From Lachnospiraceae bacterium (GTDB lineage: Bacteria > Bacillota > Clostridia > Lachnospirales > Lachnospiraceae): 64,000 nt of DNA. The translations under genes were made by a program, and so were the position numbers. How positions within the stretch are numbered: the first letter of the stretch is position 1; every line of letters begins with the position of its first letter. Under the pieces are notes generated by a model. It had not been told where the DNA came from. It saw only the letters and a list, made by a program, of their open reading frames with translations, and ran no database searches. Of this stretch, positions 26,652 through 59,163 are shown piece by piece. The DNA is taken from NCBI GenBank assembly GCA_022652545.1, contig JALCRM010000004.1:62001-126000 (forward strand), written 5' to 3'.

Positions 26652-26658
26652 CCGGACC

Positions 26659-30458: not shown

Positions 30459-30484
30459 CCGTGTCCCTGCCCGGCGTTTCCTGC

Positions 30485-32566: not shown

Positions 32567-32567
32567 G

Positions 32568-34739: not shown

Positions 34740-34748
34740 GCACACCTC

Positions 34749-36149
34749 TCACTCGACCTTTACGGACGAGTTCATGTCATAATAGCCTACCGTGTTCTTG
34801 TCGGATACGACTGTCAGGTTCATCACGTCGTACAGTCTGTGATAGACCGTGAATTCTTCCTTCTCGTACCCGGTGACGCCCAGAGAGATCAGGTACTCCC
34901 CGCCCTGCAGGTCGATCTTCTGCGTGAACGTGATCGTCTTTTCCTCACCGGCCTTTACCGGCTCAAGAAAGGCCTTCTCAAACATCGTATTCGTCCCGCA
35001 GATCTCCACGCCGTACACGTTGCGGATCGTAAACGCAAAGATGGGTGCCGCGATATCCTGCAGGATCTTCACCTTCAGCCAGACGGAGCAGGAAGAGCCC
35101 TTCATGACGGTCGTGGACGGGTTGCCCCGGTCATCGATCACGCCGTACTCCCTGATCACTGCTTTTCCGGAACCGTATTCCAGCGTTTCCGCGTTCCGGT
35201 CCGCCGTGCCTCGGTCTGCCGTGCCTGTTTCCGTGCCCTCCGGGCTCACCGACAGATGCTCGGCAGCCGCCTTCTGCTTCTCCAGCCTGTCCGCCGACTC
35301 GCCGCGGATCTTGGAGTCCGCTTCGTCCGCCTTCCGCGCCGCTGCAGCCATGATCTGATCGTCCGGGGACAGGCCGTCTGGGACCTTTCTGATCTCCCTG
35401 GTCTTCGGGTCGTACTGCCCGACCAGCACCTGCTTGTAGATGTCGATCATTTCCTTTGCGCTGCCCTCGCCCAGCTTCACGCCCTGGTTGAGAAGCACGA
35501 CGCGGTCGCAGTACTTGCTCACGTTGCTGAGATCGTGGCTGACGAACAGTACCGTTTTTCCTTCTTTTTTGAATTCCTCGAATTTGTGGTAGCACTTGGC
35601 CTGAAAAAACACGTCACCGACGGATAGTGCTTCGTCCACGATCAGGATCTCCGGTTCGATGTTGATGGCCACCGCGAAGGCCAGCCGCATGAACATTCCG
35701 CTGGAGTACATCTTGACAGGCTGGTTGATATATTCGCCGATGTCGGCAAAATCCAGGATGGCATCGAGTTTTTCGGTGATCTCCTGTTCGGAAAAGCCGA
35801 TCATCGTACCGTTGAGGTAGATGTTTTCTATCCCGTTGTATTCCATGTTGAAGCCGGCGCCCAGTTCGAGCAGCGCGGAGATCCGGCCGCGCACATCCAC
35901 GGTGCCGGAAGTCGGATTGAGGACGCCCGTGATGATCTTCAGGATCGTCGACTTGCCGGAGCCGTTCGTGCCGATGATACCCACTGTCTCCCCGCGGTAT
36001 ACCGTCATGCTCACATCGTTCAGCGCCATGTGCTCGCTGTAGTGGGACTTCAGGCCGAAAGCGTCCGCCACGCGGTCCCTGTTGCGCGCATAGAGCTTGT
36101 AACGCTTATTCAGATGACTGACCTGTACCGCGATCTCGTTCTTGTCCAT
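34749..36149 (-). CDS. Polysaccharide ABC exporter ATPase with C-terminal carbohydrate-binding-like domain (Wzt-like)
   Basis: ATP-binding subunit that drives glycan export through the adjacent permease. The 466 residues hold the nucleotide-binding domain (1-250) with Walker A GTNGSGKST at 60-68, signature YSSGM, Walker B ILIVDEALS and the H-loop SHD, then a charged linker (about 265-320) and a beta-rich C-terminal domain (about 325-466, SGKAVIREYGVIDDRGNPST onwards) like that of Wzt proteins that recognise capped O-antigen chain ends. The domain pattern, together with the WbdD-like gene eight bases downstream, suggests that export depends on chain capping. Confidence 0.9.
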   Translation of the reverse strand: MDKNEIAVQVSHLNKRYKLYARNRDRVADAFGLKSHYSEHMALNDVSMTVYRGETVGIIGTNGSGKSTILKIITGVLNPTSGTVDVRGRISALLELGAGFNMEYNGIENIYLNGTMIGFSEQEITEKLDAILDFADIGEYINQPVKMYSSGMFMRLAFAVAINIEPEILIVDEALSVGDVFFQAKCYHKFEEFKKEGKTVLFVSHDLSNVSKYCDRVVLLNQGVKLGEGSAKEMIDIYKQVLVGQYDPKTREIRKVPDGLSPDDQIMAAAARKADEADSKIRGESADRLEKQKAAAEHLSVSPEGTETGTADRGTADRNAETLEYGSGKAVIREYGVIDDRGNPSTTVMKGSSCSVWLKVKILQDIAAPIFAFTIRNVYGVEICGTNTMFEKAFLEPVKAGEEKTITFTQKIDLQGGEYLISLGVTGYEKEEFTVYHRLYDVMNLTVVSDKNTVGYYDMNSSVKVE

Positions 36150-36200
36150 TCCCGAATATCTTTCCTGTCCGCAGGCGCCGTACGCCCCTGCATCTGACCG

Positions 36201-37208
36201 TTACAGCACGTCCGCAAAGGACACCTTGAGTTTTTTGAAAACAAGCGACCCGATAATGAATACCAGCACTGTCGTGATCCAGAAATACGTCGAGGAATAA
36301 AAATGCTCGAAAAACCACTGCTTTCCGTAGATCGAGGTGCGGAATCCGTTGACGATATAGGTCATCGGGTTGATCTTGATGATGGCTTTTGTTTTGTCTG
36401 AGACCACGTTGATGTCCCAGAGGATGGGTGTCGCCCACATGCCCACCTGCAGGATGATGCCGATGATCTGCTGCAGATCGCGGAAGTAAACGGTCACGGC
36501 ACAGGTCGTATAGCAAAGTCCCAGCACAAAGATGAACTCCGCCGCCGAATAGTACAGCAGCTGCAGCCAGTATAGCGACGGGCGGAACCCGTACAGCAGC
36601 GCGATCAGCAGCATGACCGCAGTGAAGAAGACATGCGTGAAGAACGCGGCAATGATCTTGATGATCGGCAGGATACTGACCTTGAAGACCACCTTTTTCA
36701 CAAGATAGTTGTATTCGAGGAGCGAAGCCGTACCGGAGGAAAGCGCGTCCGTGAAGAAGAACCACGGCACGAGGCCCGTCGTGAGGAACAGGACGTAGGG
36801 GATCTCCTGTCCGGACGCCACCAGATGCTGGTGAAAGATCCTGTCAAACACGATGTAGTACATGATCACCGTGATGACGGGCTGTACCAGGGCCCACACC
36901 GCGCCGAAAATGGAGCCGGCGTAGCGCTTGCGGAAATCGTTCTTGGCCAGCCTCCAGATGAGCCTGCGGCTCTGCCAGAGTTCCTTCGGCAGCACCGTCA
37001 GCTTGTCGTAAGCAAAGGTGAAGACGACCGCGCCCGTGCCCAGCAGGATGATGCCGCAGAGTTTTTTGAGGTTCTCCGTATCCTGGTCATCCAGCGGATT
37101 GTGGTGCAGCAGCACCACCGCGCCGATCGAAGCCAGCACGGCCCAGACGGCAGCAATGACCAGCTTTTTGTGCTTCTTCTGTTCGTCGTTCAAAGGGACT
37201 GCCTTCAC
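36201..37208 (-). CDS. Polysaccharide ABC exporter permease (Wzm-like, ABC-2 type)
   Basis: Membrane channel for glycan export. The 335 residues have the ABC-2 core: amphipathic interface helix RLIWRLAKNDFRKRYAGSIFGA, GAVWALVQPVITVIMYYIVF, PYVLFLTTGLVPWFFF, and the closing ATPILWDINVV and INPMTYIVNGFR segments. Two additional N-terminal helices (about 15-35 and 50-70) precede the core, which most Wzm proteins lack. I choose GTG 37208, which overlaps the rfbC stop as GTGA and follows AGGAAGGG at eight bases; an earlier ATG at 37262 would lie inside rfbC and has no site. Confidence 0.88.
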   Translation of the reverse strand: MKAVPLNDEQKKHKKLVIAAVWAVLASIGAVVLLHHNPLDDQDTENLKKLCGIILLGTGAVVFTFAYDKLTVLPKELWQSRRLIWRLAKNDFRKRYAGSIFGAVWALVQPVITVIMYYIVFDRIFHQHLVASGQEIPYVLFLTTGLVPWFFFTDALSSGTASLLEYNYLVKKVVFKVSILPIIKIIAAFFTHVFFTAVMLLIALLYGFRPSLYWLQLLYYSAAEFIFVLGLCYTTCAVTVYFRDLQQIIGIILQVGMWATPILWDINVVSDKTKAIIKINPMTYIVNGFRTSIYGKQWFFEHFYSSTYFWITTVLVFIIGSLVFKKLKVSFADVL

Positions 37209-37783
37209 CTGTTCGACCCTTCCTGTTTCTTCTGTGCAAGATAGGTCCCGAGGCCGGACCATTTTGTGTCTCTGTCGGAGAGGATCAGTTCACAGCCCTC
37301 CGGGATCGGCCATTCGACGCCGATCTCGGGGTCGTTCCACATGAGGCCTCCCTCGTCGTTCGGATGGTAAAAATCAGTCACCTTATAGCAGAACTCCGCG
37401 TAGTCGGAGAGCACGAGGAAACCGTGCGCGAAGTTTTTCGGGATGAAAAACTGCTTTTTGTTTTCCGCCGTCAGCAGGACGCCGAACCACTTTCCGAAGG
37501 TCGAAGAGCCTTCGCGCAGGTCTACCGCCACGTCGAAAACTTCCCCGTTCACGACGCGCACCAGCTTGTCCTGCGGGAAATGCTTCTGAAAATGCAGGCC
37601 GCGCAGCACCCCGCGCCTGCTGGCCGACTGGTTGTCCTGGACAAAGACCTCCGGGATCCCTGCTTCCTTAAAATCGTTGTAGTTATACGTTTCCATGAAA
37701 TAACCGCGGGCATCCGGAAACACCTTCGGCGTAATGACTTTCAGTCCTTCGATCCCGCAGGTCTCAACTTCGATTTTTCCCAT
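37205..37783 (-). CDS. rfbC: dTDP-4-dehydrorhamnose 3,5-epimerase
   Basis: Third enzyme of dTDP-L-rhamnose synthesis. The 192-residue cupin protein contains ITPKVFPDARGYFMETYNYNDF, the RGVLRGLHFQ segment with the catalytic His, KLVRVVNGEVFDVAVDLR, and IPKNFAHGFLVLSD with Y132-type CYKVTDFY. Length is normal. It overlaps the permease start by four bases and follows rfbA, so the sugar supply and export genes are one transcription unit. Confidence 0.95.
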   Translation of the reverse strand: MGKIEVETCGIEGLKVITPKVFPDARGYFMETYNYNDFKEAGIPEVFVQDNQSASRRGVLRGLHFQKHFPQDKLVRVVNGEVFDVAVDLREGSSTFGKWFGVLLTAENKKQFFIPKNFAHGFLVLSDYAEFCYKVTDFYHPNDEGGLMWNDPEIGVEWPIPEGCELILSDRDTKWSGLGTYLAQKKQEGSNR

Positions 37784-37824
37784 TTTCTTTCATTCTCCCT
37801 GTATTTTTTCACGGCAGGCCGTTT

Positions 37825-38694
<870 letters not shown>

Positions 38695-38713
38695 TCCGTT
38701 CTGCCCTCCCGGC

Positions 38714-39802
38714 TCAGTCGCGGTCTCCGTACATCTTTTCGTAGTACTTCATGTAGTCGCCGCTCGTGATGTGTTCCATCCAGTCCATATGGTCAAAATA
38801 CCAGGCGATCGTCTTACGGATGCCTTCCCGGAACATCGTCTCCGGCTCCCAGCCAAGTTCCTTTTTGATCTTGTCCGGAGCGATCGCATACCTGCGGTCA
38901 TGCCCTTTGCGGTCCGCCACATAGGTGATCAGGTCATACGTGACCTTTGCCTTGCGGGGATCGGTATCCGGCAGTTCCTCGCGCAGCACATCGATGATGG
39001 TCTGCACGATCTCTATGTTCTGTTTTTCATTGTGTCCGCCCACATTGTAGGTCTCAAAGAGCCTGCCCTTCTCGATGACCAGGTCGATCGCGCGGCAGTG
39101 ATCCTCGACGTAGAGCCAGTCGCGGACATTTTTGCCGTCCCCGTATACCGGCAGCGACCTGCCGTTCAGTGCGTTGTTGATCATCAGCGGGATCAGTTTC
39201 TCCGGAAACTGGTAAGGGCCGTAGTTGTTCGAGCAGTTCGTGATGTTCGCCGGGAACTTATACGTGTCCATATAGGCCTTGACGAGCAGGTCGGAACCCG
39301 CCTTGCTCGCGGAGTACGGACTGTGCGGAGCGTACGGCGTGGTCTCGTAGAAGAAGCTCGTGTTGTCCTCCGGCAGGGAACCGTATACTTCGTCCGTGGA
39401 AACATGCAGGAATCTGCGTCCCTCGTGGAATGTGCCGTCCCCGTTGTCCCAGGCTTCCTTTGCGCAGTTCAGCATGTTGGCCGTGCCGAGCACATTCGTC
39501 TTCACGAACAGCTCCGGTTCGACGATGCTGCGGTCCACGTGGCTCTCCGCCGCAAAGTGCACCACCCTGTCTATGCTGTTTTCGGCAAAGACCTTCCGCA
39601 CGGCTTCCTTGTCGGTGATGTCCGCTTTGACGAACGTGTAGTTGCTCCGTCCCGCAACGTCCTCCAGGTTCTCGGGATTGCCCGCATACGTGAGCGCGTC
39701 CAGGTTGATGATCCTGATCTCATCCCCGTATTTTCCGAACATGTAATGAATGAAATTGGATCCGATGAAACCGCATCCGCCTGTTACAAGATAGGTGGTC
39801 AT
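38714..39802 (-). CDS. rfbB: dTDP-glucose 4,6-dehydratase
   Basis: NAD-dependent short-chain dehydrogenase/reductase fold enzyme forming dTDP-4-keto-6-deoxyglucose. [16 protein letters not shown] is the Rossmann loop, [13 protein letters not shown] and [15 protein letters not shown] (YxxxK) give the catalytic residues, and [19 protein letters not shown] is the family block. 362 residues is slightly long but normal. Strong GGGAGGAG precedes the ATG and an extended -10 lies 34 bases upstream, so it is the first gene of the polysaccharide operon. A dTDP-4-dehydrorhamnose reductase gene (rfbD) is not in the window. Confidence 0.96.
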
Positions 39803-43326: not shown

Positions 43327-43519
43327 AAAAATATCCCTCCGTGAGGAAAGCCGGGCCGGACAGATCGCGCAGTTTCCTGATACATGCTGCCGTTTTTTCG
43401 CCGCGTGGACTTTTCGAATCCGGTAGTTTACAATCAATGCAATCATAACACAAAGTCCGGACGCGCACGCCGCATCCGGGAAATGCATCCGCCATTCGAC
43501 GGGAGGCTTGGATCTTCAG

Positions 43520-44812
43520 ATGAAGCAGGACAAAGACAGTCAAAACAGCACTCCATCCGCTGAGGACGACATTCTGGACATTGAACAGGAGTATCTTAAC
43601 GACGATGCCGATGCCGCACACCGCAGAAAATATGAAAGCATTTACGGGGACGACACGCCGCAGGGCGCAGACCGTTCCGGCTCTGCCGGCGCGCGCCGCG
43701 GGAACGCGCGCGCCGGCAGCCGGAACAGCGGGTCCGAACGCCGCACGGGCAGTGCCGCCGGTCCGGATCGCCGCGCCGGCACGGGGCACGGACGCAGAAG
43801 ACGCAGACAGGGTGTGAACGCACACGCGGTCCTCTGGATCGTGATCGCGGCCATTGCCGCGGCTGCGGGGATACGCCTCTACCTATGGAACCGGGGCGAA
43901 AAATCCACCTACGACCCTTCCGCCGTCAATACGAATTATGATATCGAGGTGCAGGACATCATCACGGCGCAGGATCCCAAGGTACTCGAGGGGCGCACGG
44001 ACGACGGCAGGACCACGATCCTGTTCCTGGGCGACGACCCCATCAGCGATGATACGGGGGATACCGGCATCGCCGGCCGGGTCAAGGCACTCGGCGGCGA
44101 CAATGTCGATGTGATGACCGCTGCTTTTCCGGGCTCGCAGGTGGCGTGCAAAAATGCCACGTACAGCACCTCCTACGTGGATGACGCCTTCAATTTCTAC
44201 TATGTCTGCAGCAGCATCAGCCTCGGCGATTACACCGCCATGTCCAATGCCGCCAGCCTTAAGACGGACTCGGACGTCTACGCCTCTTCGGTGAAAACGC
44301 TGCAGGGCGTCGATTTCAACACGGTGGACGTCATCGCCGTGATGTATGACGCTGTCGACTATCTGAACGGTTCGCCGGTCTACAATACAAACGACACCGG
44401 TGATCTCCAGACCTATGCAGGCGCCCTGGAACGCGGATTCTCCCTCATCAGGGACAAATATCCCTGGATCCGTCTCGTGTTCCTGTCCCCCACCTACGCG
44501 CTGTACGTCGACGCCGACGGAAAACAGCAGCCGGGCGACACGTACGATGCAGGAAACGGCACGCTGCCCACCTACTGGACCAAGGCGATCGATGCCTGTT
44601 CGGCAGCGGAGACCGTCTCCTTTATCGACAACTATTACGGTTCCGTGAACGCAGACAACTACAAGGACTATCTGGCTGACAACATCCATCTCAACGCAGC
44701 CGGCTTTGATGCGGTCGCCCGCCATTTTGTCAGCAAGATCCTCGAAGGCTCACTGGACGAATACAACGCAGACGCGGCCGCTTCGGATGCAGATACCGCC
44801 GCTTCAGAATGA
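43520..44812 (+). CDS. Membrane-anchored SGNH/GDSL-like protein with degenerate nucleophile motif
   Basis: 430 residues on plus. A disordered basic Arg/Gly/Ala-rich cytoplasmic region (1-95) precedes one membrane helix (about 100-122), then an SGNH-like domain (about 150-420). Block I reads ILFLGDDPISDD where GDSI/L is expected, so the usual Ser is Asp; the closing block DNIHLNAAGFDAVA keeps the Asp and His spacing. It may be a non-hydrolytic or variant member of the family. ATG 43520 is 13 bases from GGAGG; TTG 43508 is too close to that site. It runs convergently into the next gene and overlaps its end by nine bases. Confidence 0.8.
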   Translation: MKQDKDSQNSTPSAEDDILDIEQEYLNDDADAAHRRKYESIYGDDTPQGADRSGSAGARRGNARAGSRNSGSERRTGSAAGPDRRAGTGHGRRRRRQGVNAHAVLWIVIAAIAAAAGIRLYLWNRGEKSTYDPSAVNTNYDIEVQDIITAQDPKVLEGRTDDGRTTILFLGDDPISDDTGDTGIAGRVKALGGDNVDVMTAAFPGSQVACKNATYSTSYVDDAFNFYYVCSSISLGDYTAMSNAASLKTDSDVYASSVKTLQGVDFNTVDVIAVMYDAVDYLNGSPVYNTNDTGDLQTYAGALERGFSLIRDKYPWIRLVFLSPTYALYVDADGKQQPGDTYDAGNGTLPTYWTKAIDACSAAETVSFIDNYYGSVNADNYKDYLADNIHLNAAGFDAVARHFVSKILEGSLDEYNADAAASDADTAASE

Positions 44813-49407: not shown

Positions 49408-51387
49408 TCAGCGCAGCGTATAGACATATACGGTGTAGGGTGAGGACGGGTCCGTGTACGAAGCGTGCAGGAGCAGCCCCTCCTCGTCCGCATTTGAAAT
49501 ATCGATCCTGGAAAAAACATATTTACAGCCCAGTGCCTTCAGCGCCTTCTCGTCGATGGCGATCCGGCTGTCCGCGGGGCGGTAATTGCGCACGGCCTGC
49601 ACGATCGAATCCTCATAGCCGGAGTACAGGTAGCAGCGCGCGCCCCAGTCATCGTAATAGACCCGCGTGGCGGGACGGAGGTCGAGCGCCGGCGCGATCA
49701 CCCTGCGGAACGCATCCTTGTAGCTCTGCGGGTAAAATCCCAGATACCCGTCCAGGGTCGCAATGCCGTTGTACTCTAGTACTGCCGGGTGAAATCCGTA
49801 GGCGACCGCCCACTCGGTCCCTGTGTCTGTAGCGGTGCCTGTACCTGCCGCCGTATCCGTACCTGCCGCCGTATCCGCTGCGGTACCGCTCTCTTCCGGG
49901 GCGGCTGCCTTTTCCGTTACCGCCGAAGGCGTGCCATCTGTCAGAGACAGGTCGCCCGCCTGGTAGTGCAGGTCCTGCTTGATCTTTTCAAACAGGCCGG
50001 TCGAATAGAATTCCCCGTAGCTCAGTTCGTCCGTCTGCTTTCCCTTTGTCTTCAGGTAAAAAGCCTTAGCTGTGCTGCGCAGGTCATTGTAATCGTTCGC
50101 CGTGAGCAGCACGACGGCGATCGCGGCCAGGCACATCGCCGGTGCCGCAAAACGGCAGACGGCGCGCAGCATGCCCTCCGGTCTCCGGGAGCCGCCCGTC
50201 TTCCCGTCTTTTCCTCCGGCCGTCACCTTGATGCCATACTCCCCGTAGCGGCAGATCCGTATGCAGACCAGGAAAAACGACGCATACCAGAGAAACGGAT
50301 TGAAGAAGACCGTCCGGTTGAACTGGAACCCTTTGAGCGGCGGCAGCAGTTTCTCAAACAGGCCGCGGAAAGCGGGACTGTAGTAAAGTCCGTAGATAAC
50401 ACTGTTAAAAACAAGGAGCAGTGCGCACAGATTGTAGAGATCGCGGAAGATGCGGCGGCCCTGTCCCCGGACGATGTAGCGCACGTTCAGGAAGATAAAA
50501 TAGCCCGCACATACGGGCAGTACAAACCTTGCGTGCGCGTCCGACACATGCATCATCCCGTTCCTGAAAACGTCCGCGATCACCTGCAGGATCTCCCCCG
50601 GGCGCAGGTCTCCCGCCTGCATCGTAGAGCGGATCGACAGTGTGTGTGAAAAGAGCATCTGGGAGAAGAGCCGGTATTCAAACAGGACCGTCCCGGCGCC
50701 GAAGGCGACAGTACCCGCCAGGATGCGCAGCGGCGGTTTCCTGTCCCTGATCCAGAGCCAGAGGAAAGCCACCGCAAAATAGGCGAGCAGGAAAAAACCG
50801 AAGTAGGAAAAATAGCACAGGAACGGGCTTGCAAACAGTCCGAGCAGGGCCGGAACAGCCTGCTTTTTTCCCGCCGCGCGGTACAGCCGCACCATCAGCC
50901 AGAGGATGAGAGGGATCGAAGCAAACTCGATCCCGAACGCGGGAAACAGGTTGAGCACGCCGTAGGCAAAACCGCAGAGCGCAACGATCGCCTTCTCCGG
51001 CGCCGCAAAGGCAGACGCGTTGGTCCTGCCCTTCAGCAACACTTCCCCGGCCAGCAGGCCGAACGAAAACATGGACAGAATGACCTTGACGAACCAGCAG
51101 ACGATATAGGCCGGAAAAGACGGCAGCAGCCAGTAGATGATCCCCGCAAGCGACAGTTCGGACGGCAGCACATCGCGGCTCACGCCGCCGAGGAACGGCG
51201 CTGCCGTGCCGTGCAGGAAAAAGCTGCCCGTGTTCCTGAGCATACGGTACTGTGCCTCGAACAGGTCGAGGTTGTCGTGCACGCCGATCACCGCATTCTC
51301 GCCTTCCGCGATGTACAGGGCGGCTGCGGCAGCCAGAAAAGCGCCGATCAGGATCCTATACCAGTTTTGTTTTACCCGGTGAAGCAT
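49408..51387 (-). CDS. Large polytopic membrane protein, DUF6044-like (GT-C-like topology)
   Basis: 659 residues with roughly 11-12 hydrophobic helices through residue 430 and a C-terminal extracytoplasmic domain (about 440-659). The first outer loop carries an acidic patch (GVHDNLDLFEAQYRMLRNTG), as in GT-C glycosyltransferases that use lipid-linked sugar donors. I place it in the DUF6044 group from memory; its function is not known to me. The C-terminal part has a Thr/Ala/Gly/Asp low-complexity insertion (TAADTAAGTDTAAGTG). ATG 51387 is preceded by AGGAG. It is two bases past the stop of the DPM1-like gene, which could supply a polyprenyl-phosphate sugar. Confidence 0.78.
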   Translation of the reverse strand: MLHRVKQNWYRILIGAFLAAAAALYIAEGENAVIGVHDNLDLFEAQYRMLRNTGSFFLHGTAAPFLGGVSRDVLPSELSLAGIIYWLLPSFPAYIVCWFVKVILSMFSFGLLAGEVLLKGRTNASAFAAPEKAIVALCGFAYGVLNLFPAFGIEFASIPLILWLMVRLYRAAGKKQAVPALLGLFASPFLCYFSYFGFFLLAYFAVAFLWLWIRDRKPPLRILAGTVAFGAGTVLFEYRLFSQMLFSHTLSIRSTMQAGDLRPGEILQVIADVFRNGMMHVSDAHARFVLPVCAGYFIFLNVRYIVRGQGRRIFRDLYNLCALLLVFNSVIYGLYYSPAFRGLFEKLLPPLKGFQFNRTVFFNPFLWYASFFLVCIRICRYGEYGIKVTAGGKDGKTGGSRRPEGMLRAVCRFAAPAMCLAAIAVVLLTANDYNDLRSTAKAFYLKTKGKQTDELSYGEFYSTGLFEKIKQDLHYQAGDLSLTDGTPSAVTEKAAAPEESGTAADTAAGTDTAAGTGTATDTGTEWAVAYGFHPAVLEYNGIATLDGYLGFYPQSYKDAFRRVIAPALDLRPATRVYYDDWGARCYLYSGYEDSIVQAVRNYRPADSRIAIDEKALKALGCKYVFSRIDISNADEEGLLLHASYTDPSSPYTVYVYTLR

Positions 51388-51389
51388 CG

Positions 51390-52370
51390 TCAGCTCCTGC
51401 CCTCCGCCGCGCCGTGATCCTTCCCCGCGCTGCGCTCCAGTTCGCGGCGGTATCCGGCGTTCAGTTCATTGCGCCTTATCTCGAAATTCCTGCGGTCTTC
51501 ACGCTCCATGTTGGAAAGGATGAGGCCGGAGAACAGCGACTGGACAGCCGCCAGCATGACAAAACAGCAGACGAAGAGCGTGGGGAATTTGGCCACCGCA
51601 CCCGTCGCGAGATACGCCTTCAGTACCGGAATGAAGAAGCCGACGGAAAGGGCCGCGAGGACCAGCGAAAAGAAGCCGAAGAAGGCCAGGGGCCTGTAGT
51701 TCTTGTAAAGCGTGAAGATCATGCGGAGCACGCGGAAGCCGTCGCTGTAGGTATTGAGTTTGGATTTGCTGCCTTCCGGACGGTCCCTGTACTGCACCAC
51801 CACGTTGTCGATCTGCATTCTGTTGTAGATGGCGTGGATCGTCATCTCCGTTTCGATCTCAAAGCCGTTCGAGAGCACGGGAAATGTTTTGACAAAATCG
51901 TAGCTGAAGGCGCGGAAGCCGGTCATGATATCCCGGACATTGCTTTCAAAAAGCCGGTTGATCGTACTGCGCACGAGGGAGTTCCCCAGGTTGTGGAAGG
52001 GGCGTTTGTTCTCGGTGAAATAGGTCGAGGAAAGACGGTCGCCGACGACCATGTCCGCGTTCTTTTCCAGTACCTTCTCTACCATCTCCGGAGCCGCGTC
52101 CATCGGATACGTGTCGTCTCCGTCCACGATCACATAGCACTGCGCGTCGATCTCCCGGAACATCCGGCGTATGACGTTGCCTTTGCCCTGCATGTACTCT
52201 TTCCTTACGACAGCTCCCGCGGCGGAAGCCAGCGCGGCCGTTCCGTCCGTGGAATTGTTGTCATAGACATAGACCACCGCCTCAGGCAGCGCGGCCTTTG
52301 TGTCGGCCACCACCTTGGCGATCGTCAGCGACTCGTTGTAGCAGGGGATCAGAACTGCGATCCTGTCCAT
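51390..52370 (-). CDS. GT2 glycosyltransferase, polyprenyl-phosphate sugar synthase-like (DPM1/GtrB type)
   Basis: 326 residues: GT2 domain MDRIAVLIPCYNESLTIAKV, YVYDNNSTDGT, VIVDGDDTYP (DxD-type) and MTGFRAFSYDFVKTFPVLS, then two C-terminal membrane helices (about 235-300) and a basic tail. This layout is typical of enzymes that form polyprenyl-phosphate-linked sugars. Start ATG 52370 follows GGAAGGAG at five bases; a longer frame upstream overlaps the MBOAT gene. It probably feeds the DUF6044-like GT-C candidate next to it. Confidence 0.88.
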   Translation of the reverse strand: MDRIAVLIPCYNESLTIAKVVADTKAALPEAVVYVYDNNSTDGTAALASAAGAVVRKEYMQGKGNVIRRMFREIDAQCYVIVDGDDTYPMDAAPEMVEKVLEKNADMVVGDRLSSTYFTENKRPFHNLGNSLVRSTINRLFESNVRDIMTGFRAFSYDFVKTFPVLSNGFEIETEMTIHAIYNRMQIDNVVVQYRDRPEGSKSKLNTYSDGFRVLRMIFTLYKNYRPLAFFGFFSLVLAALSVGFFIPVLKAYLATGAVAKFPTLFVCCFVMLAAVQSLFSGLILSNMEREDRRNFEIRRNELNAGYRRELERSAGKDHGAAEGRS

Positions 52371-52389
52371 ACATTCTCCTTCCGTTACT

Positions 52390-53868
52390 TCAGAATCCCT
52401 GGTAGATGAATTCGGAAGTACTGTAACCCGGTCCGTACTTACCAAGCAGTATGACATAAAACAGCAGCGCAAACCATATGATCCAGCGGACTGCGCCCGG
52501 CTTTTCCGCTATCCTGTCGCGCAGCGGTCTCTTCTGCTGCAGCACGGAGGCAGTAAACAGAACGGCGACAGAGACCAGCAGCACCGTAAAGTCGATCCAG
52601 TCGAGCCCCAGGCCGAACAGGCTCCCGTCCGCAAGGATCTGCGGATTCCATACGGATATGCCCCGCCGCAGCATGTGCACGGCGGCACCGGCGCTCTCCG
52701 CCCTGAAAAACACGTTGCCGATATTGACCAGGAAAAAGGTCCTTACGATGCGGAAGGTGTCGGCTGCCCGCCCTTCCATGGGAATGTGCAGCTTCGGAAG
52801 GAATTTTTTCCAGAACGGCAGCGTCACTTCTCCGAATACGATATAGAACCAGTGCAGCAGACCGGCACCGATGACATACTTGATGTTGCCGCCGTGCCAC
52901 AGTCCTACGGACAGCCACAGGATGAACATGGCCGTGAAGGTGGTAAGCTGTTTTCCGGCCTTCCTGCCGAACCTTTCACGGTTCGCCTTTCCCAGCCGGG
53001 TAAAAAGTCCGGAGCGCAGCAGCGGATAAAACACGTAATCCTTCATCCAGATGCCCAGCGTGATGTGCCACCTGCGCCAGTATTCGGAGATGGACTTCGA
53101 AAAGAACGGTGTGCTGAAGTTTTCCGGCAGTTTGATTCCCAGCGTCTGGGAAAGTCCGATCACAATGTCCATGCAGCCGGAGAAATCCGCGTAAAGCTGG
53201 ATCGTAAAGAGCACCGCACCGACCCAGATATAGGCGCCGCCGTATTGTGTGTAATTGTCAAAGATCGTATTGGCCGGCACAGCGGCGTATTCCGAGATCA
53301 CGAGTTTCTTGAAAAAGCCCCAGACCATGCGCTGCATGCCCTTCGTGACCTGCTCGTAATCAAAGCGGTGCGGCTCGTACAGCTGCGCCCCGCTCTCGCG
53401 GTACAGCTGTATGGGGCCGGAGATCATCGTCGGAAAGTAGAAGCCGTACAGCGCCAGTCTGAAAAAGTTGTCCTGGCATTCCGCGATCCCGTTGTATACG
53501 TCGATGGCGTAACCCGCCAGGATGAATGTGTAAAAGGACAGTCCGAGGGGCACCGCGATGCCGCCTCCGAATCTGAGATATTTCAGCGCAGCCAGCACGC
53601 CGATGAGCAGCAGTACATCCAGCAGCAGCCATGCCGTCTTTCCGCGCGTCTGTCCGCTCTCCTGCGCTTTCTTCATGCGCTGCGTACAGAGAAACGTCAC
53701 TGCCACGGCCGCGGCCGGCCACAGGATCAGCCAGCCGTTCCCGGACAGCAGATAAAACAGGATGCTGGCCGAAAGCAGCAGCACCCACTGCAGCCTGCCG
53801 GGAAGAATATAATACAGGCACAGCAGCACCGCATAAAAACACAAAAAGTAAAACGAGGTGATCTCCAT
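52390..53868 (-). CDS. MBOAT family O-acyltransferase (DltB/AlgI-like), second copy
   Basis: 492 residues, about 11 membrane segments. The MBOAT core is clear: LGLSFYTFILAGYAIDVYNG, YFPTMISGPIQLYRES, KSISEYWRRWHITLGIWMKD and the catalytic-histidine segment SVGLWHGGNIKYV. The final LGKYGPGYSTSEFIYQGF resembles DltB-type ends. ATG 53868 follows GGAAGG. It faces the VOC gene across 75 bases and lies in front of the DPM1-like gene. MBOAT proteins of this branch transfer acyl groups from a carrier protein across the membrane onto extracytoplasmic glycans, and an ACP gene lies 540 bases away. Confidence 0.92.
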   Translation of the reverse strand: MEITSFYFLCFYAVLLCLYYILPGRLQWVLLLSASILFYLLSGNGWLILWPAAAVAVTFLCTQRMKKAQESGQTRGKTAWLLLDVLLLIGVLAALKYLRFGGGIAVPLGLSFYTFILAGYAIDVYNGIAECQDNFFRLALYGFYFPTMISGPIQLYRESGAQLYEPHRFDYEQVTKGMQRMVWGFFKKLVISEYAAVPANTIFDNYTQYGGAYIWVGAVLFTIQLYADFSGCMDIVIGLSQTLGIKLPENFSTPFFSKSISEYWRRWHITLGIWMKDYVFYPLLRSGLFTRLGKANRERFGRKAGKQLTTFTAMFILWLSVGLWHGGNIKYVIGAGLLHWFYIVFGEVTLPFWKKFLPKLHIPMEGRAADTFRIVRTFFLVNIGNVFFRAESAGAAVHMLRRGISVWNPQILADGSLFGLGLDWIDFTVLLVSVAVLFTASVLQQKRPLRDRIAEKPGAVRWIIWFALLFYVILLGKYGPGYSTSEFIYQGF

Positions 53869-53886
53869 CGTTCGGTCGCCTTCCGG

Positions 53887-53915
53887 TTGAAAAACCGCTC
53901 CCGCAGCGTTAACAT
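53887..53915 (+). promoter_or_regulatory. Promoter of the VOC gene
   Basis: TTGAAA (53887-53892), 17 bases, then TAACAT (53910-53915) on plus, 28 bases before the ATG. It lies in the 75-base region shared with the divergent MBOAT gene. Confidence 0.6.
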
Positions 53916-53943
53916 GATGCTTATGGACGTCGGGGATGCGCAC

Positions 53944-54348
53944 ATGCTGAATTTAAAAGTACACCACGTAGGCTACTTAGTCAAAAAATCGGCGCCGGCA
54001 AAGGAGGCTTTTCTTTCCCTCGGCTGGCGCACTGAACAGGATTTTGTCCGCGATGATGCGCGCGGGATCGATATCTGTTTTCTCATTAAGGACGGTCTGC
54101 GCATCGAACTGATCTGTCCGTTCCGCAGCGATTCCACAGTCAGCGGCCTGCTGAAGCGGATCCCGAACGGTCCCTACCATATCTGCTATCTCAGCCGTTC
54201 CCTGGAACAGGACGGCAGTACGCTGCGGGATCTCGGCTTCCTGCCGATCGGGGATCCTGCCCCTGCTCCCGCCTGCGGCGGTCACCCGGTGCAGTTTTTC
54301 ATACATCCTGCCATGGGCATGATCGAGCTGCTCGGTGAGGACGCCTGA
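53944..54348 (+). CDS. VOC (glyoxalase/epimerase) family protein
   Basis: 134-residue vicinal-oxygen-chelate protein resembling methylmalonyl-CoA epimerases. It begins LKVHHVGYLVKKSAPAKEAF, has a repeat of the beta-alpha-beta motif (YHICYLSRSLEQDGSTLRDL) and metal-ligand candidates in HHVGY, YHICY and FFIHPAMGMIELLG (Glu). ATG 53944 follows GGGGA; upstream Met codons in frame are less supported, and the longer frame behind them is antisense to MBOAT. It is the only plus-strand gene within the FkbH-MBOAT cluster. Similar small VOC proteins often accompany FkbH/ACP gene sets, so it might act on the acyl group before or after loading. Confidence 0.85.
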   Translation: MLNLKVHHVGYLVKKSAPAKEAFLSLGWRTEQDFVRDDARGIDICFLIKDGLRIELICPFRSDSTVSGLLKRIPNGPYHICYLSRSLEQDGSTLRDLGFLPIGDPAPAPACGGHPVQFFIHPAMGMIELLGEDA

Positions 54349-54409
54349 TCTGATCCCGACGTTTATGACGAAAGTTTTTGCTGCCTGACGGTCCTTTGCG
54401 GACGACCGC

Positions 54410-54655
54410 TCACTTTGCGAGCTTCGCTTCGACTGCGTCCGCCATCTCACCGACGTTCTTCATCGTCACGACTTCTCCCATACTGAAGCGTATTCCGAAT
54501 TCCTGCTCGACCGCAGCGATCAGATTGATGTGCTCCAGGCTGTCCCAGCCATCGATATCGGCGCTCGTCGTAGCGTCGTTCACCGTAATGTCCGCGTCGT
54601 CGAACACGTCCCTGAAAACTCCGTTCAGTCTCTCGAAGATCTGTTCTCTGCTCAT
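54410..54655 (-). CDS. Acyl carrier protein
   Basis: 81 residues; the phosphopantetheine-attachment serine is Ser39 in GWDSLEHINLIAAVEQEF. Acidic helix II is normal, and the length is that of stand-alone carriers. GGAGG precedes the ATG. It lies 31 bases behind the DHHW/SGNH gene in the fkbH operon, the position DltC has in dlt operons. It should carry the acyl group that FkbH loads and MBOAT transfers. Confidence 0.94.
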   Translation of the reverse strand: MSREQIFERLNGVFRDVFDDADITVNDATTSADIDGWDSLEHINLIAAVEQEFGIRFSMGEVVTMKNVGEMADAVEAKLAK

Positions 54656-54686
54656 ATCTGCCTCCGGAATGATGCGCTGCGCTTTT

Positions 54687-55835
54687 TTACTGCGCGGCAG
54701 CCTGTTTTGCGCCTATCCCCGTCGTGATCGAGAAATTCAGCATGTTGTTGAGATAGCGTTCGACAGTCTCATAGATCACGATCTTCGGCTGTTCTTCTTC
54801 CAGCTGGGAAAGCGCATAGTTGTAATAAAAGCCTTCATAGACATTGTTGAAGCGCAGCGCCACATAGGGAGCCATCATCGTGGAAAAAGAATCGCCGATG
54901 ATAAAGACCTTGCGGTCGTCTTCCCCGCCGTCGGTGCAGGTGTAGCGGAAAACAGTGAGCGCGTCGTTGTGTTCGCTCGTGATCGCGTGCTCCGCTATTC
55001 CCTCCAGCACGGGGGCCGGATCGTCCTTCAGCTGGTTGCCGAGGTGGAGCAGGCGCGCCAGGTCATATACGGGTACATGGCCGTCCGAACGTTCCACGGT
55101 GGAAAGATCCGGCAGTTCTTCCACATCCAGCGTCTTCAGGAGTTCGCGGGCGCCGATGTAGGACCCCAGGTTGTTCCAGTGTGTATCGTACTTATAGTAG
55201 AGCTGGTCCTGCGGATTGGCTGCCTTGTAATCCTCAATCGTCTCATAAGGGCAGACCACCGTGAGGTCCGTGTTTTTCTGCAGATACTCGACCACCTGGT
55301 CCTCGCGTCCCCGGGAAGTTAGTCTTCCGTAGCTGTCCGGCATATATTCCGCGTATGCGCGCTCCTTGTTCGGGCAGACCATGATGACGAACTGCATGCC
55401 CCTCGAAGAAAGTTCGTCCCTCGCTGCGGTCATGTTCTGCGCGATCTGCTGCAGCTGCTCTTCGGTAAACAGGTTCGTGCCTTCGTAGTCGGCGATGGGA
55501 TCTTCCCCGTTCACCTGGGAGCCCTTGTAGAAGAGCCAGCCCTTTTTGCCTATGATCACGCTGTCCGACTGGGTGCTGTGCAGCACCTTGTATTCCGCAA
55601 GTCCGTTCACAGTGAGCAGCGCGTCGCGGAACGGCAGGTTGTCGCTGAAATAGGATTCAAACAGGTTCGGGTAGGTCGTCAGGGTGGCTGCCGAAAGGAC
55701 CGGCCTCTGGGCGAGCTGCCGGTTCTCGCTGTCTGCGGAGACCGTCATTTTCCCGAATACCGCGGACAGAAGCAGCGGCAACGCGACCGCGGCTGCAAAC
55801 ACCGTTATGTAAAAAACACGTACGGACTTCTTCAT
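54687..55835 (-). CDS. DHHW/AlgX-like SGNH hydrolase-fold protein
   Basis: 382 residues with one N-terminal membrane anchor (about 7-25) and an extracytoplasmic SGNH domain. Catalytic candidates are Ser in VFIIGDSFSTMMAPY and the Asp/His pair in YKYDTHWNNLG, typical of AlgX/AlgJ/DHHW proteins that act in glycan acylation beside MBOAT enzymes. Conserved WLFYKGSQVNGED matches the family. ATG 55835 follows GGAGAGG; a frame start at 55862 is less likely. It lies between MBOAT and ACP, the place of DltD in the dlt operon, and may finish acyl transfer to the final glycan. Confidence 0.88.
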   Translation of the reverse strand: MKKSVRVFYITVFAAAVALPLLLSAVFGKMTVSADSENRQLAQRPVLSAATLTTYPNLFESYFSDNLPFRDALLTVNGLAEYKVLHSTQSDSVIIGKKGWLFYKGSQVNGEDPIADYEGTNLFTEEQLQQIAQNMTAARDELSSRGMQFVIMVCPNKERAYAEYMPDSYGRLTSRGREDQVVEYLQKNTDLTVVCPYETIEDYKAANPQDQLYYKYDTHWNNLGSYIGARELLKTLDVEELPDLSTVERSDGHVPVYDLARLLHLGNQLKDDPAPVLEGIAEHAITSEHNDALTVFRYTCTDGGEDDRKVFIIGDSFSTMMAPYVALRFNNVYEGFYYNYALSQLEEEQPKIVIYETVERYLNNMLNFSITTGIGAKQAAAQ

Positions 55836-55848
55836 TGTGACCTCTCCA

Positions 55849-57255
55849 TCAGAATTTGGCATAGATGAACGGATTGTATGTGTTGCTCGCCATCATGACG
55901 ATGCTGCAGAGCAGAACGCAGAGACAGAACACCGCTTCCGGCATGCTGTTTTTCCAGTCCGCCGTAAGCTTTCTGCAGCGTCCGCACTGCATGACAGACT
56001 GCAGCAGTCCGCAGCCGAGAACGGCAAGTACGCCGGCAATGACCGACTGTGTTGTCAGGATCTGACCCATATGAACGCCCGAAATCGTATATTTCCAGGG
56101 CAGCAGCATGCGGAGCACCATGGCAAAGCCGAACCGCACCGAGCCGACCCGGAAAAACACCCAGCCGATCGTGAAGATCAGTACCGCGTAGATGTGGGAC
56201 AGCACTTTGGATCTGTCGAGTACTTTCTTCAGACCCATGCGCTCGATGATCATAAAGAAGCCGTGATATATGCCCCAGCCGACAAAGTTCCAGCTGGCGC
56301 CGTGCCAAAGGCCCGTCACGGCAAAGACCACGAACAGATTGACGTAGGTGCGGATCTTTCCTCTGCGGTTGCCGCCCAGCGGAATGTACAGATACTCACG
56401 GAACCATGTGCCCAGCGTGATGTGCCAGCGCCTCCAGAACTCCGTGATCGATTTGGAAATATAAGGATAGTTGAAGTTCTCCGGGATGTCGAAGCCCATC
56501 ATCCGGCCTATCCCGATGGCCATATCCGTGTATCCGGAAAAGTCGTAATAGAGTTCCAGCGTATAAAACGCCGCGCCGATCCACGCCTGAGCGCCGTTCA
56601 TATTCGTCACGTCCATGGCGAAGATCACATCTACCGGTTTGGCCAGCACGTTGGCGATGATCACTTTTTTGCCGAGGCCGTAGATGAAGCGGCGGAAGCC
56701 TTCCGCAAAACCGTCCTTCGTCATGACGCGTTCGGTCAGCTGCGCCTCCATCTCGCTGTAGCGCGCGATGGGACCGGACACCAGCCTGGGGAAAAAGGAC
56801 AGGAACAGTGCGAATTTCAGCGGACTCTTCTGCACGGGGAAACGCCCCCTGTACAGGTCGATGATGTAGGTCAGCGCCGAGAAGGTAAAGAATGAAATGC
56901 CGAGAGGCATTCCGAATGTCGTCATCGGAATGGAGGTGTGCAGGATGTGATTGACCGTGTTGATGGCAAAGTTCGCGTACTTGTAATAGCCCAGCAGGCC
57001 GAGGTTGCCGACCAGCGCCAGGATCAGCACCAGTTTCTTCTCCGCACCTGCGCGGGACAGCCAGAGCCCCAGCGCCCAGTTCATCAGGATGGACAGAAGG
57101 AGCAGGACAATGTACTGCGGATCCCCCCACGCGTAGAACAAAAGACTGGCGATGAGCAGCAGGATGTTCTGGTATTTCGGCGGCCGGATCAGAACACACA
57201 GCAGCAGTACGACCGGCATGAATATCCACAGGAACACGAATGAACTGAATGACAT
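55849..57255 (-). CDS. MBOAT family O-acyltransferase (DltB/AlgI-like), first copy
   Basis: 468 residues, 11-12 membrane segments. Core motifs: PLGISFFTFSALTYIIDLYRG, FFPRLVSGPIARYSEM, KSITEFWRRWHITLGTWFRE, YIPLGGNRRG and TGLWHGASWNFVGWGIYHG with the conserved His. Compared with the other MBOAT in the window it is closer to AlgI/PatA-type proteins. Its ATG overlaps the fkbH stop by one base (TGATG), so expression is coupled. It should accept an acyl group from the ACP-bound form made by FkbH and move it across the membrane. Confidence 0.94.
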   Translation of the reverse strand: MSFSSFVFLWIFMPVVLLLCVLIRPPKYQNILLLIASLLFYAWGDPQYIVLLLLSILMNWALGLWLSRAGAEKKLVLILALVGNLGLLGYYKYANFAINTVNHILHTSIPMTTFGMPLGISFFTFSALTYIIDLYRGRFPVQKSPLKFALFLSFFPRLVSGPIARYSEMEAQLTERVMTKDGFAEGFRRFIYGLGKKVIIANVLAKPVDVIFAMDVTNMNGAQAWIGAAFYTLELYYDFSGYTDMAIGIGRMMGFDIPENFNYPYISKSITEFWRRWHITLGTWFREYLYIPLGGNRRGKIRTYVNLFVVFAVTGLWHGASWNFVGWGIYHGFFMIIERMGLKKVLDRSKVLSHIYAVLIFTIGWVFFRVGSVRFGFAMVLRMLLPWKYTISGVHMGQILTTQSVIAGVLAVLGCGLLQSVMQCGRCRKLTADWKNSMPEAVFCLCVLLCSIVMMASNTYNPFIYAKF

Positions 57256-59081
57256 CAGACTACCTCAATGTGGTGATTTTTTCCGGTATATTCCCGGGGT
57301 ATGATAAATTTCCAGGCTGTGTTTCCCTTTGCGTCTCCGCTGATCCTGACAAAGCCCATGTCGGCGTAGAAATCCTTCACCATGCCGTTTCTGGAAGTCG
57401 GATAGTAATAGCCGTAGATCTCGGCAATGCCCTTTTTCCGGCAGGCTGCGACCAGCGCATCCATCATAGCGTATTCCATATCCCGTTTCAAGACGCGGCA
57501 GCTCATGAGCCAGAGATCGATCAGCAGCGCGTGCGTACCCGTTTTCCTGGGAACGGCTCCGCTGCCTTCCTCCGTGACCGTCATAGCTTCGGAACCGACA
57601 ATGACGGATACGATGCCGTTGTCGCCGAACCGGTCAGCCAGGCTGCCGTACAGGGTCACCATCTCCGGATCCTCCGCTGCCTTCCGGATCTCCCCTTCGC
57701 TGTAGCGTTTCGTCGTGAGGTTGAACTGGTTGCTCTTGTTCGTCAGCTGCGTGATGCGGCCGTAAAACATAGGCTCGAAGCTACGGATATGCGCCTTCAT
57801 TTCCAGGGAATCGAGGTATGCCCCGTAGTCCCCGAACGAGGCTTCGGCTTTCTTCCGTGCCGTATTGGCGCGGATCATATCGGTGCGCTTTGCATCGTCT
57901 TCCGACAGGGAGATCACTTCAAAATAAGCCGCATGATCCAGGATACGGATGAAATTCTCCGGCGCCGTCATTTCAGGCACGGCTGCCTCCGGCACCTGCT
58001 GCCGCACGATCTCCCGCTCCGCCGGGTTGTCATCCACAAAGACCATGGCCTCGGGCAGAATATTCATATCCTCCGCGATCGCGGTGAGATTTCTGCTCTT
58101 CGGCTCCCAGTTGGCCCGGATGTCCGCGAAGTCTTCCGGGTGCAGCGCCCCGGACGGATGGCGCAGGCCGGCGAGCGCGTTGGCTTCATCGTTCTTGGAA
58201 TCCACCGTCAGGAGCACGCCGATCTCCTTGAGTTCCTTCAGGTATTTCTGGAATTCCAGGTAGACCTGCCCCATGGAGGTCTCTTTTCCGATCTCCAGTT
58301 TTTCAGGGCCGTCATCCCCGACGACACCGCCCCACAGGGTGTTGTCCAGATCCAGCGCCAGCGCCTTTTTATTCCGCCCGTACAGGGCCTTGACGATGGC
58401 TGCGATATTGTAGGCCAGCGCCGGGATCGCCTGCATGCACATCGCGTATTTGTACATGTTCCAGTAAGCATCGTCCGAAAAAGCATCCAGTCCGTACTGC
58501 GCCGCGATATAGTTCAGGTCACAGAGAAGGAAGCCGGCATGCGTGTCGGCGTACTCCGCCAGTTTTTCATTGAGCCTGTTCACAAACCGCACGCGTCCCC
58601 TGATGTCGGACGCTTCGCGGTTTCCCATGATACGGCAGGCGGGGTATTCAAAGTTGTTCTGGATCACGGGGCAGGAAAACCTTTCCGACAGTTTTTCCCA
58701 GACGGTGCGCCAGTCAGCGAAGACCTTGTCCGGGAGCGCCGCAGCTTCTTCCTTCGGCATGGCCGGGGAGGGCAGTTCGCCGCGCATTTCCAGATTGCGG
58801 CAGGATGTCTGGATATAGATGATATCGGGCGCGAAGGCATCCAGCTCTGCGTTGCCAAACACGGCATCCTCGTAAAAGCGGTCGTACTCCGATTCCCAGA
58901 AATCCGCTTCGATCCCCTGCTGCAGCAGAAAAAGATCCGTCATGCGGACCACGTCGTGCGTCGTCGAGCCTCCGAGGAACGCGATCTTCCTGCGCATCCT
59001 GGAAGTGCCGTCCGCCAGCAGTTCCCGACGGATCTTTTTGGAGTTTTTTAAAAGTTCGTCTGCGTCAAACGGATAAAACAT
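57255..59081 (-). CDS. FkbH-like HAD-superfamily (HAD-IIIC) enzyme
   Basis: 608 residues. An SGNH-like N-terminal domain (about 30-200; FLGGSTTHDVVRM) is followed by a HAD phosphatase-like domain with ALDLDNTLWGGVVGDDG (catalytic Asp244 and Asp246), TVDSKNDEANALAGL and VFVDDNPAEREIV, and a GNAT-like C-terminus (about 440-600, ADMGFVRISGDAKGNTAWKF). FkbH proteins take a phosphoglyceryl group from 1,3-bisphosphoglycerate and load D-glyceryl onto an acyl carrier protein. Here it is the first gene of an ACP/MBOAT/SGNH operon, so the loaded group is probably destined for a surface glycan. ATG 59081 follows GAGG; an earlier frame start at 59138 is not supported. Confidence 0.93.
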   Translation of the reverse strand: MFYPFDADELLKNSKKIRRELLADGTSRMRRKIAFLGGSTTHDVVRMTDLFLLQQGIEADFWESEYDRFYEDAVFGNAELDAFAPDIIYIQTSCRNLEMRGELPSPAMPKEEAAALPDKVFADWRTVWEKLSERFSCPVIQNNFEYPACRIMGNREASDIRGRVRFVNRLNEKLAEYADTHAGFLLCDLNYIAAQYGLDAFSDDAYWNMYKYAMCMQAIPALAYNIAAIVKALYGRNKKALALDLDNTLWGGVVGDDGPEKLEIGKETSMGQVYLEFQKYLKELKEIGVLLTVDSKNDEANALAGLRHPSGALHPEDFADIRANWEPKSRNLTAIAEDMNILPEAMVFVDDNPAEREIVRQQVPEAAVPEMTAPENFIRILDHAAYFEVISLSEDDAKRTDMIRANTARKKAEASFGDYGAYLDSLEMKAHIRSFEPMFYGRITQLTNKSNQFNLTTKRYSEGEIRKAAEDPEMVTLYGSLADRFGDNGIVSVIVGSEAMTVTEEGSGAVPRKTGTHALLIDLWLMSCRVLKRDMEYAMMDALVAACRKKGIAEIYGYYYPTSRNGMVKDFYADMGFVRISGDAKGNTAWKFIIPREYTGKNHHIEVV

Positions 59082-59154
59082 TCCGATACCTCTTTGCAAA
59101 GCCTGTTGCTTTCTGCCGCGGACAGCCTTTGTCCGCACTTTTATATATCAGTTT

Positions 59155-59163
59155 ATTATAGCA
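59155..59163 (-). promoter_or_regulatory. Extended -10 promoter of the fkbH operon
   Basis: TGCTATAAT on minus, 74 bases ahead of the fkbH ATG; same element as at 11646, 39836 and 46781. No consensus -35. Confidence 0.82.

Follow-up and report, generated by a model that had tools for sequence, protein, structure and literature searches.

A clostridial gene set that joins FkbH and a stand-alone acyl carrier protein to membrane O-acyltransferases: a candidate acylation system for surface glycans

Among described acylation systems, Dlt (DltABCD and DltX) offers a close comparison for a gene set found in a 64,000-nucleotide stretch of a Lachnospiraceae genome (assembly GCA_022652545.1, contig JALCRM010000004.1, positions 62,001 to 126,000; hereafter the window). 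Both have a stand-alone carrier protein, a membrane-bound O-acyltransferase (MBOAT) of the DltB fold, an SGNH-type protein and an external polymer as the likely target. The window set encodes an FkbH-type enzyme, an acyl carrier protein (ACP), two MBOATs (MBOAT1 and MBOAT2), an AlgX-like SGNH protein, a VOC protein, a family 2 glycosyltransferase (GT2) and a DUF6044 protein. Judged by these genes, it probably specifies a system that acylates an exported surface glycan by way of a carrier protein; in it, glyceryl from FkbH and the ACP would travel through an MBOAT and an SGNH protein. The FkbH-ACP-MBOAT module at its center is real and widely distributed, and is akin to Dlt yet not a member of it. 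Whereas Dlt loci carry DltA, this locus has FkbH and no ligase; a shuttle tail sits on the MBOAT itself; and the SGNH protein is AlgX-like, not DltD. Both MBOATs score far below the cut-off of the DltB equivalog TIGR04091 (169.2 and 138.9 bits, cut-off 375). The SGNH protein has matches to PF16822 and PF14286 but to none of the NCBIfam models, and is thus not identified as DltD.

The PatA/PatB, PatA1/PatB1 and AlgI/AlgJ/AlgX systems also share features with the window, namely an MBOAT with a catalytic His and a C-terminal FxYxxF motif together with an SGNH partner. The available text of PMC12148441 describes Tyr acylation in FxYxxF as shown for PatA and states it for DltX, and it cites a reference for the modification of a secondary wall polysaccharide by PatB1. 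According to the same text, MBOAT-SGNH pathways other than Dlt use acyl-CoA and have no carrier protein, whereas an ACP and its likely loader are encoded here. The window set thus looks like a hybrid, with a Dlt-style carrier, a PatA-style built-in shuttle and FkbH as a substitute for the ligase.

Tetronate and methoxymalonyl modules resemble the set in a different respect, since they combine FkbH with a stand-alone ACP; the window FkbH also shares its catalytic residues with FkbH copies from long frames. In the accessible portion of PMC7489565, an FkbH-like enzyme with a stand-alone ACP is described as making glyceryl-ACP. The partners here, however, are MBOAT, VOC and glycan genes, and no ketosynthase or nonribosomal peptide synthetase was found among 50 proteins scanned (30 neighbors from the loci described below and 20 from the window). 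Published cases with both FkbH and an MBOAT, in the extracts available, have FkbH loading a peptide synthetase, while the MBOAT is a separate enzyme for which acylation of a sugar or action on another part is proposed. Bacterial surface glycans that bear glycerate have a precedent in Campylobacter, where di-O-methylglyceric acid occurs on flagellin pseudaminic acid and depends on Cj1295 (PMC3068675, in part). That glycan, though, belongs to flagellin, and neither "MBOAT" nor "acyl carrier" occurs in the main text of that paper. In the open-licence literature we found, among the matches listed, no description of an FkbH-ACP-MBOAT system for surface glycans, in agreement with a first-pass annotation of the window that knew of none; nor did we find a paper there linking FkbH to lactyl, or to bryostatin and lactate.

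All genes of the set are present and intact, and each of those named in the first-pass annotation was recovered at its place with a match to its family. The features are as follows.

59155..59163, minus strand: extended -10-like element TGcTATAAT upstream of FkbH, read by eye
57255..59081, minus strand: FkbH-type glyceryl-ACP synthase (HAD-IIIC with FkbH_N), 608 amino acids from the ATG at 59081; TIGR01686 at 251 bits (cut-off 146.65), TIGR01681, PF21211
55849..57255, minus strand: MBOAT1, membrane O-acyltransferase with C-terminus FIYAKF; PF03062 at 107.6 bits
54687..55835, minus strand: AlgX/DHHW-like SGNH acyltransferase with an N-terminal hydrophobic stretch and DTHW and GDSF motifs; PF16822 at 65.3 bits
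54410..54655, minus strand: stand-alone ACP (WDSLEH, Ser39); PF00550 at 28.1 bits (cut-off 20.8)
53944..54348, plus strand: VOC protein (Glyoxalase_4), which may modify the thioester of glyceryl-ACP; PF13669 at 42.4 bits
52390..53868, minus strand: MBOAT2, C-terminus FIYQGF; PF03062 at 43.7 bits
51390..52370, minus strand: DPM1/AglJ-like GT2, probable polyprenyl-phosphate-sugar synthase; PF00535 at 67.7 bits, TIGR04182 at 194.9 bits (below its cut-off of 325)
49408..51387, minus strand: DUF6044 multi-pass protein, possibly a GT-C glycosyltransferase; PF19510 at 504 bits
48382..49362, minus strand: radical SAM/SPASM protein; PF04055, PF13186; cluster F7

The minus-strand genes form two runs, the first comprising FkbH, MBOAT1, the AlgX-like SGNH protein and the ACP, and the second MBOAT2, GT2, DUF6044 and the radical SAM gene. 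The tight spacing proposed for the set holds, with MBOAT1 overlapping the FkbH stop codon by a single base (57255). The promoter proposed in front of FkbH stays putative: the -10-like element can be read by eye, but a consensus scan gave no sigma-70-type site there. The VOC gene lies on the plus strand between the two runs, convergent with the ACP gene and divergent from MBOAT2; it therefore stands outside both runs and divides the set into two parts. The set amounts to more than chance, given frames of 81-659 amino acids, matches above curated family cut-offs and many residues that are invariant across up to 81 sequences.

The host genome (2.67 Mb in 27 contigs, 81% complete) gave nine MBOAT matches, one FkbH match and four PP-binding matches. 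Relatives of FkbH were collected as the best 80 of 251 candidate loci, mostly Lachnospiraceae by title, with two assemblies contributing two loci each; some of the contigs are short, and counts of absent genes may therefore be too high. FkbH exceeded its cut-off in 29 of 150 genomes of the family and 35 of 291 of the class. A wider sample of 40 FkbH regions was hand-picked from the family and class match lists, mostly with stand-alone FkbH, and 37 were counted after removal of L112, L113 and L123, whose FkbH was not over 250 bits. Ten of the 29 FkbH-bearing family genomes fall outside this sample, including all six with an MBOAT2 orthologue. Six of its 20 family regions were chosen with an MBOAT near FkbH already known, and its 20 class-list regions (18 counted) were chosen without knowledge of MBOATs.

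Catalytic residues of FkbH and the ACP are kept throughout. D244, D246, T248 and C528 of FkbH are invariant in 81/81 rows, and D244, D246 and C528 recur in 45/45 rows of a second, wider set that includes seven sequences from frames of 729-4261 amino acids. The window FkbH thus retains the HAD DxDxT motif and the conserved Cys in SCR, which we take to be the residue that carries glyceryl (C528). Ser39 of the ACP is conserved in 78/78 rows, and an ACP gene lies within 6 kb of FkbH in 77/80 loci and near FkbH in 34/37 wider loci. A profile search of the genome at its 81% completeness gave no DltA-like ligase at the FkbH locus. The sole DltA-like match (242.7 bits, cut-off 559.85) is on contig C5, where an MBOAT and a weakly DltD-like gene lie beside it and an ACP follows at a distance of about 1.3 kb. 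With that separate Dlt-like group elsewhere and the FkbH residues and ACP serine kept, FkbH in the place of DltA, as had been proposed, is the natural reading. FkbH has an unusual setting in L079, L084 and L089, where its neighbors match phosphofructokinase and DNA polymerase III gamma/tau (by Pfam for L089, by shared clusters for the other two). L093, labelled as a Treponema sp. metagenome-assembled genome, carries FkbH, MaoC, ACP and MBOAT; either the genes extend beyond Bacillota or the record was binned wrongly.

An MBOAT lies within 10 kb of FkbH in 65/80 loci, and the commonest unit is FkbH-ACP-MBOAT2, often accompanied by VOC, GT2 and DUF6044. Orthologues of MBOAT2 (>500 bits) occur in 54/80 loci, which we call core loci, and the six best MBOAT2 matches (>=444 bits) among the 150 family genomes are all within 5 kb of FkbH. 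MBOAT2 was first described as simply next door to the set; it does adjoin it, but is in fact the commonest MBOAT partner of FkbH-ACP in the family. Only six of the 80 loci, all nearest relatives of the window, have MBOAT1 (>400 bits), and the AlgX-like SGNH protein is found in five, again only nearest relatives. The exact set originally proposed was accordingly rejected as a general unit. Conservation of the genes together holds for the core of FkbH, ACP and MBOAT, whereas the exact order does not extend beyond the window and its closest kin. Across the wider sample, an MBOAT lies near FkbH in 20/37 loci, including 10 of the 18 class-list loci counted. In these 37 loci, the 216 kb of sequence lying within 3 kb of FkbH contained 20 places with an MBOAT above 100 bits, whereas the 425 kb lying 3-12 kb away contained no such place.

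Phylogenetic analysis of the MBOATs points the same way for MBOAT2 and widens the picture for MBOAT1. The largest tree (79 rows, quick search, long branches flagged) took wider-loci MBOATs only at >=200 bits and >=380 amino acids. In it, 38 FkbH-linked rows around MBOAT2 group together (support 97), and this group holds none of five MBOATs from other contigs of the host genome and none of 15 divergent MBOATs. A further 13 FkbH-linked rows group around MBOAT1 (99), made up of the seven-row MBOAT1 clade, L088 and rows from five wider loci. All six rows adjoining the MBOAT1 clade (L088, L104, L106, L107, L115 and L118) are FkbH-linked. The MBOATs of L103, L129 and L131 fall near the MBOAT1 group, some other wider rows fall outside both groups, and so do the five host-genome MBOATs. 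Because almost every row came from an FkbH locus, the purity of these groups is partly built in. In three earlier trees with fewer rows, likewise thinned and including 1/7, 3/7 and 6/7 of the host genome's own MBOATs, the MBOAT2 core formed one clade; L003 had no clean frame in those trees and L006 was then left out. A single clade for all FkbH-linked MBOATs, with MBOAT1 as a stray insertion, was ruled out by the 18 MBOATs added from wider loci. The FkbH-linked group around MBOAT1 raises its standing as a possible user of the ACP, and the earlier proposal of MBOAT1 as partner of FkbH-ACP stays a candidate, its nearest kin in other Clostridia loci also lying beside FkbH.

The predicted structure of MBOAT2 (mean predicted local distance difference test score, pLDDT, 87.7) has DltB, the MBOAT that works with a carrier, as its best solved folds (TM-score by target 0.74-0.76, E 2e-12 to 7e-11). 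H324 of MBOAT2 is present in 55/55 rows and H318 of MBOAT1 in 7/7. At 21 loci (L024, L026, L027, L050 and others), an MBOAT-like gene on the minus strand lies upstream of FkbH with a member of a DltD-like family (the DltD match was checked on L050), a second acylation pair within one cluster.

Taken together, these data are consistent with the following route. FkbH would take glyceryl from 1,3-bisphosphoglycerate, remove the phosphate and load the ACP, as its family and conserved residues suggest. The alpha-hydroxy thioester is the probable substrate of the VOC protein, a metal enzyme of the glyoxalase/methylmalonyl-CoA epimerase superfamily that might, for example, invert C2, as its co-occurrence with FkbH and its metal site suggest. 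By analogy with PatA and DltX, MBOAT2 would receive the acyl group of the ACP on the Tyr in its FIYQGF tail, and an SGNH protein (AlgX-like here, GDSL-type in most relatives) would pass it to the glycan, to which GT2 and DUF6044 would add a lipid-linked sugar. MBOAT1 and the AlgX-like protein appear to be a lineage-specific arrangement, with MBOAT1 probably using the same ACP or else forming a separate acetyl-CoA system.

The VOC protein may alter glyceryl-ACP before transfer. H12, E59, H83 and E132 (numbered from GDAHM, four residues before Met) are present in 50/50 rows and presumably are the four metal ligands. The nearest solved chains, 2qh0 and 3hdp (79 bits), are named lactoylglutathione lyase and glyoxalase I. 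S-lactoylglutathione and glyceryl-S-ACP are both alpha-hydroxy thioesters, so that proton exchange at C2 of glyceryl-ACP would make chemical sense; to our knowledge, glutathione is mostly absent from Clostridia. Context, too, points to FkbH-ACP rather than a glutathione hemithioacetal as the partner. VOC lies within 6 kb of FkbH in 49/80 loci and 11/37 wider loci. At E 1e-15 the window VOC has homologues in 14 of the 150 family genomes, and every one of these 14 also belongs to the 29 that carry FkbH (hypergeometric p 4e-12, or 2e-11 without the window's own genome, genera being taken as independent). In G003, G045, G079, G107 and G120 the two genes are far apart or on different contigs, so this co-occurrence reflects more than linkage. 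When one of the solved VOC chains was searched against 14 genomes from a different family of this class, it gave four matches, each directly beside FkbH (4/4). The association of VOC with the set, claimed from the start, is therefore borne out as tight co-occurrence with FkbH, but not as membership of an operon, which we rejected because in the window, as in 49/49 named loci with VOC, the gene runs on the opposite strand; in the wider loci it is on the same strand (11/11).

It is quite possible, at somewhat below an even chance, that the group delivered is not plain D-glyceryl but epimeric glyceryl here and lactyl in variants with MaoC and a short-chain dehydrogenase/reductase (SDR), a reading that refines rather than excludes the glyceryl route above. 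VOC is near FkbH-ACP in 60 of 117 loci and MaoC in 21, with no locus having both; MaoC occurs in 8/37 wider loci, and the 54 core loci divide into 41 with VOC, 2 with MaoC and 11 with neither. Some MaoC loci contain an SDR and a split transketolase, and dehydration and reduction of glyceryl-ACP could give lactyl-ACP. This exclusivity, however, is not significant once kinship is counted by independent pairs (0 same and about 3.3 opposite of 12 pairs, median p 0.25), and 36 of the 117 loci have neither gene, some of them on short contigs. VOC and MaoC labels switch many times along the FkbH tree. L053, L069 and L073 carry FkbH, split transketolase, MaoC, ACP, SDR and MBOAT, a second FkbH-ACP-MBOAT style whose product is perhaps lactyl or another acyl group.

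We tentatively propose a broader scheme, for which we would claim rather less than for the glyceryl system itself: a modular clostridial route from a glycolytic intermediate to surface alpha-hydroxyacyl groups. FkbH and ACP would provide glyceryl, VOC would invert or isomerize it or MaoC and SDR would convert it to lactyl-ACP, and at least two lineages of tailed, ACP-dependent MBOATs would export the product. If so, some proteins filed as clostridial glyoxalase I would be glyceryl-ACP enzymes with a predicted natural substrate, and surface glycans would be decorated with glycerate or lactate straight from glycolysis, linking central metabolism to the cell surface. The scheme would also give a function to widespread but generically annotated MBOAT, VOC and ACP genes, and its membrane acyltransferase would combine traits of Dlt and of PatAB.

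Alternatively, MBOAT1 and the AlgX-like SGNH protein, and perhaps MBOAT2, may be ordinary O-acetyltransferases of the PatA/PatB type that use acetyl-CoA, with FkbH-ACP making glyceryl for a cytosolic step and merely located alongside. The AlgX-like protein, which keeps D217, H219 and S316 in 6/6 rows, has AlgJ and Bacillus PatB1 as its nearest solved relatives, as this alternative would predict. The shuttle tail favors neither donor. FxYxxF ends 55/55 core MBOATs, 7/7 grouped MBOATs of the MaoC-SDR type and that of L088, and is found in 0/1010 non-MBOAT open reading frames. Among 29 divergently encoded MBOATs, 17 have the narrow tail pattern and 8 others have FxYxxF with its Tyr in second position, and the ends of the remaining 4 are cut off or different; wider-loci MBOATs over 200 bits have the strict motif in 13/19 and Tyr at that place in 19/19. 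The tail is also present on 4/6 host-genome MBOATs away from FkbH. FkbH, ACP and VOC moreover occur with no MBOAT in the fetched stretch at L094, L095, L098 and L120. Co-location by accident, however, sits poorly with the concentration of MBOATs within 3 kb of FkbH and their absence at 3-12 kb, and with the FkbH linkage of all six rows next to the MBOAT1 clade. We therefore consider an acetyl-CoA system unlikely.

Most relatives have a different SGNH partner, as an SGNH protein is found in 44/54 core loci, GDSL-type in 41 and AlgX-like in 4, one locus having both. All GDSL-type copies in other loci keep GDS (52/52); the window has a divergent homologue with GDD, which is perhaps no longer a serine acyltransferase, and the AlgX-like protein may have taken over the GDSL-type role. 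This gene and the glycan genes of the window are:

43508..44812, plus strand: divergent homologue of the GDSL-type SGNH family that adjoins FkbH in relatives, with GDD rather than GDS in block I; 70 bits to the family model
21087..39802, minus strand: surface-glycan context with an LCP protein, a sugar-phosphate transferase, glycosyltransferases and a Wzm/Wzt-type exporter; Pfam LytR_cpsA_psr, Bac_transf, Glycos_transf_2, Wzt_C, ABC2_membrane

Genes that we take to be RmlA/B/C-like, named from the starts of their open reading frames, lie within the latter region on the same strand. The LCP, sugar-phosphate transferase, glycosyltransferase and Wzt_C exporter genes at 21-40 kb suggest an ABC-exported wall glycan as the likely acceptor. 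That FkbH-ACP instead supplies a secreted small molecule (a polyketide or glycolipid), as in tetronate clusters, has support in the FkbH roles in natural-product pathways described in the available parts of PMC7489565 and PMC13122637, but is very improbable given the lack of ketosynthase and peptide synthetase among the proteins scanned, these glycan genes, and the glycosyltransferases, GtrA, PMT and DUF6020 near the loci of relatives. Counted by clusters, GT2 is found in 49/80 loci, DUF6044 in 43/80 and the radical SAM gene in 37/80. DUF6044 occurs in 15/150 family genomes, and FkbH is present in 11 of these 15 (p 2e-6, again with genera as independent); a close MBOAT2 is found in six genomes, five of which also carry VOC together with DUF6044. 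For the predicted DUF6044 structure (pLDDT 72.1), Foldseek was led by OST, PglB and ArnT with probability 0.97-1.00 but E of only 8e-3 to 4e-2, TM-scores of about 0.3 and root mean square deviations above 10.

Several points weigh against the surface-acylation interpretation. We infer the acyl group, its donor and its acceptor from the genes. The FkbH-linked MBOATs are not one clade but form at least two groups, and MBOAT1, too, has DltB as its only solved match, so that likeness to DltB does not single out one MBOAT as the user of the ACP. The nearest solved relatives of the SGNH protein, AlgJ and PatB1, come from systems that transfer acetyl. FkbH and ACP occur with no MBOAT nearby in 14/37 wider and 13/80 loci (some contigs being short), which indicates that the FkbH-ACP module has other uses. 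VOC is not within 6 kb of FkbH in 13/54 core loci, including the near relative L015, and 4 of the 15 DUF6044 genomes have no FkbH. Models of GT2 and DUF6044 gave 0 and 1 places within 12 kb of FkbH in the 37 wider loci, suggesting that the glycan genes are tied to one form of the system. The co-occurrence p-values, finally, ignore kinship among genera. On balance, the first-pass interpretation of the set as a Dlt-like surface acylation system loaded by FkbH is partly supported.

Two further genes were noted beyond FkbH. A protein of 1233 amino acids at 59280-62981, judged by look, contains many short repeats (DLKSGT, SGAGDL), and from 63003 on it is adjoined by a protein of MMPL-like look.

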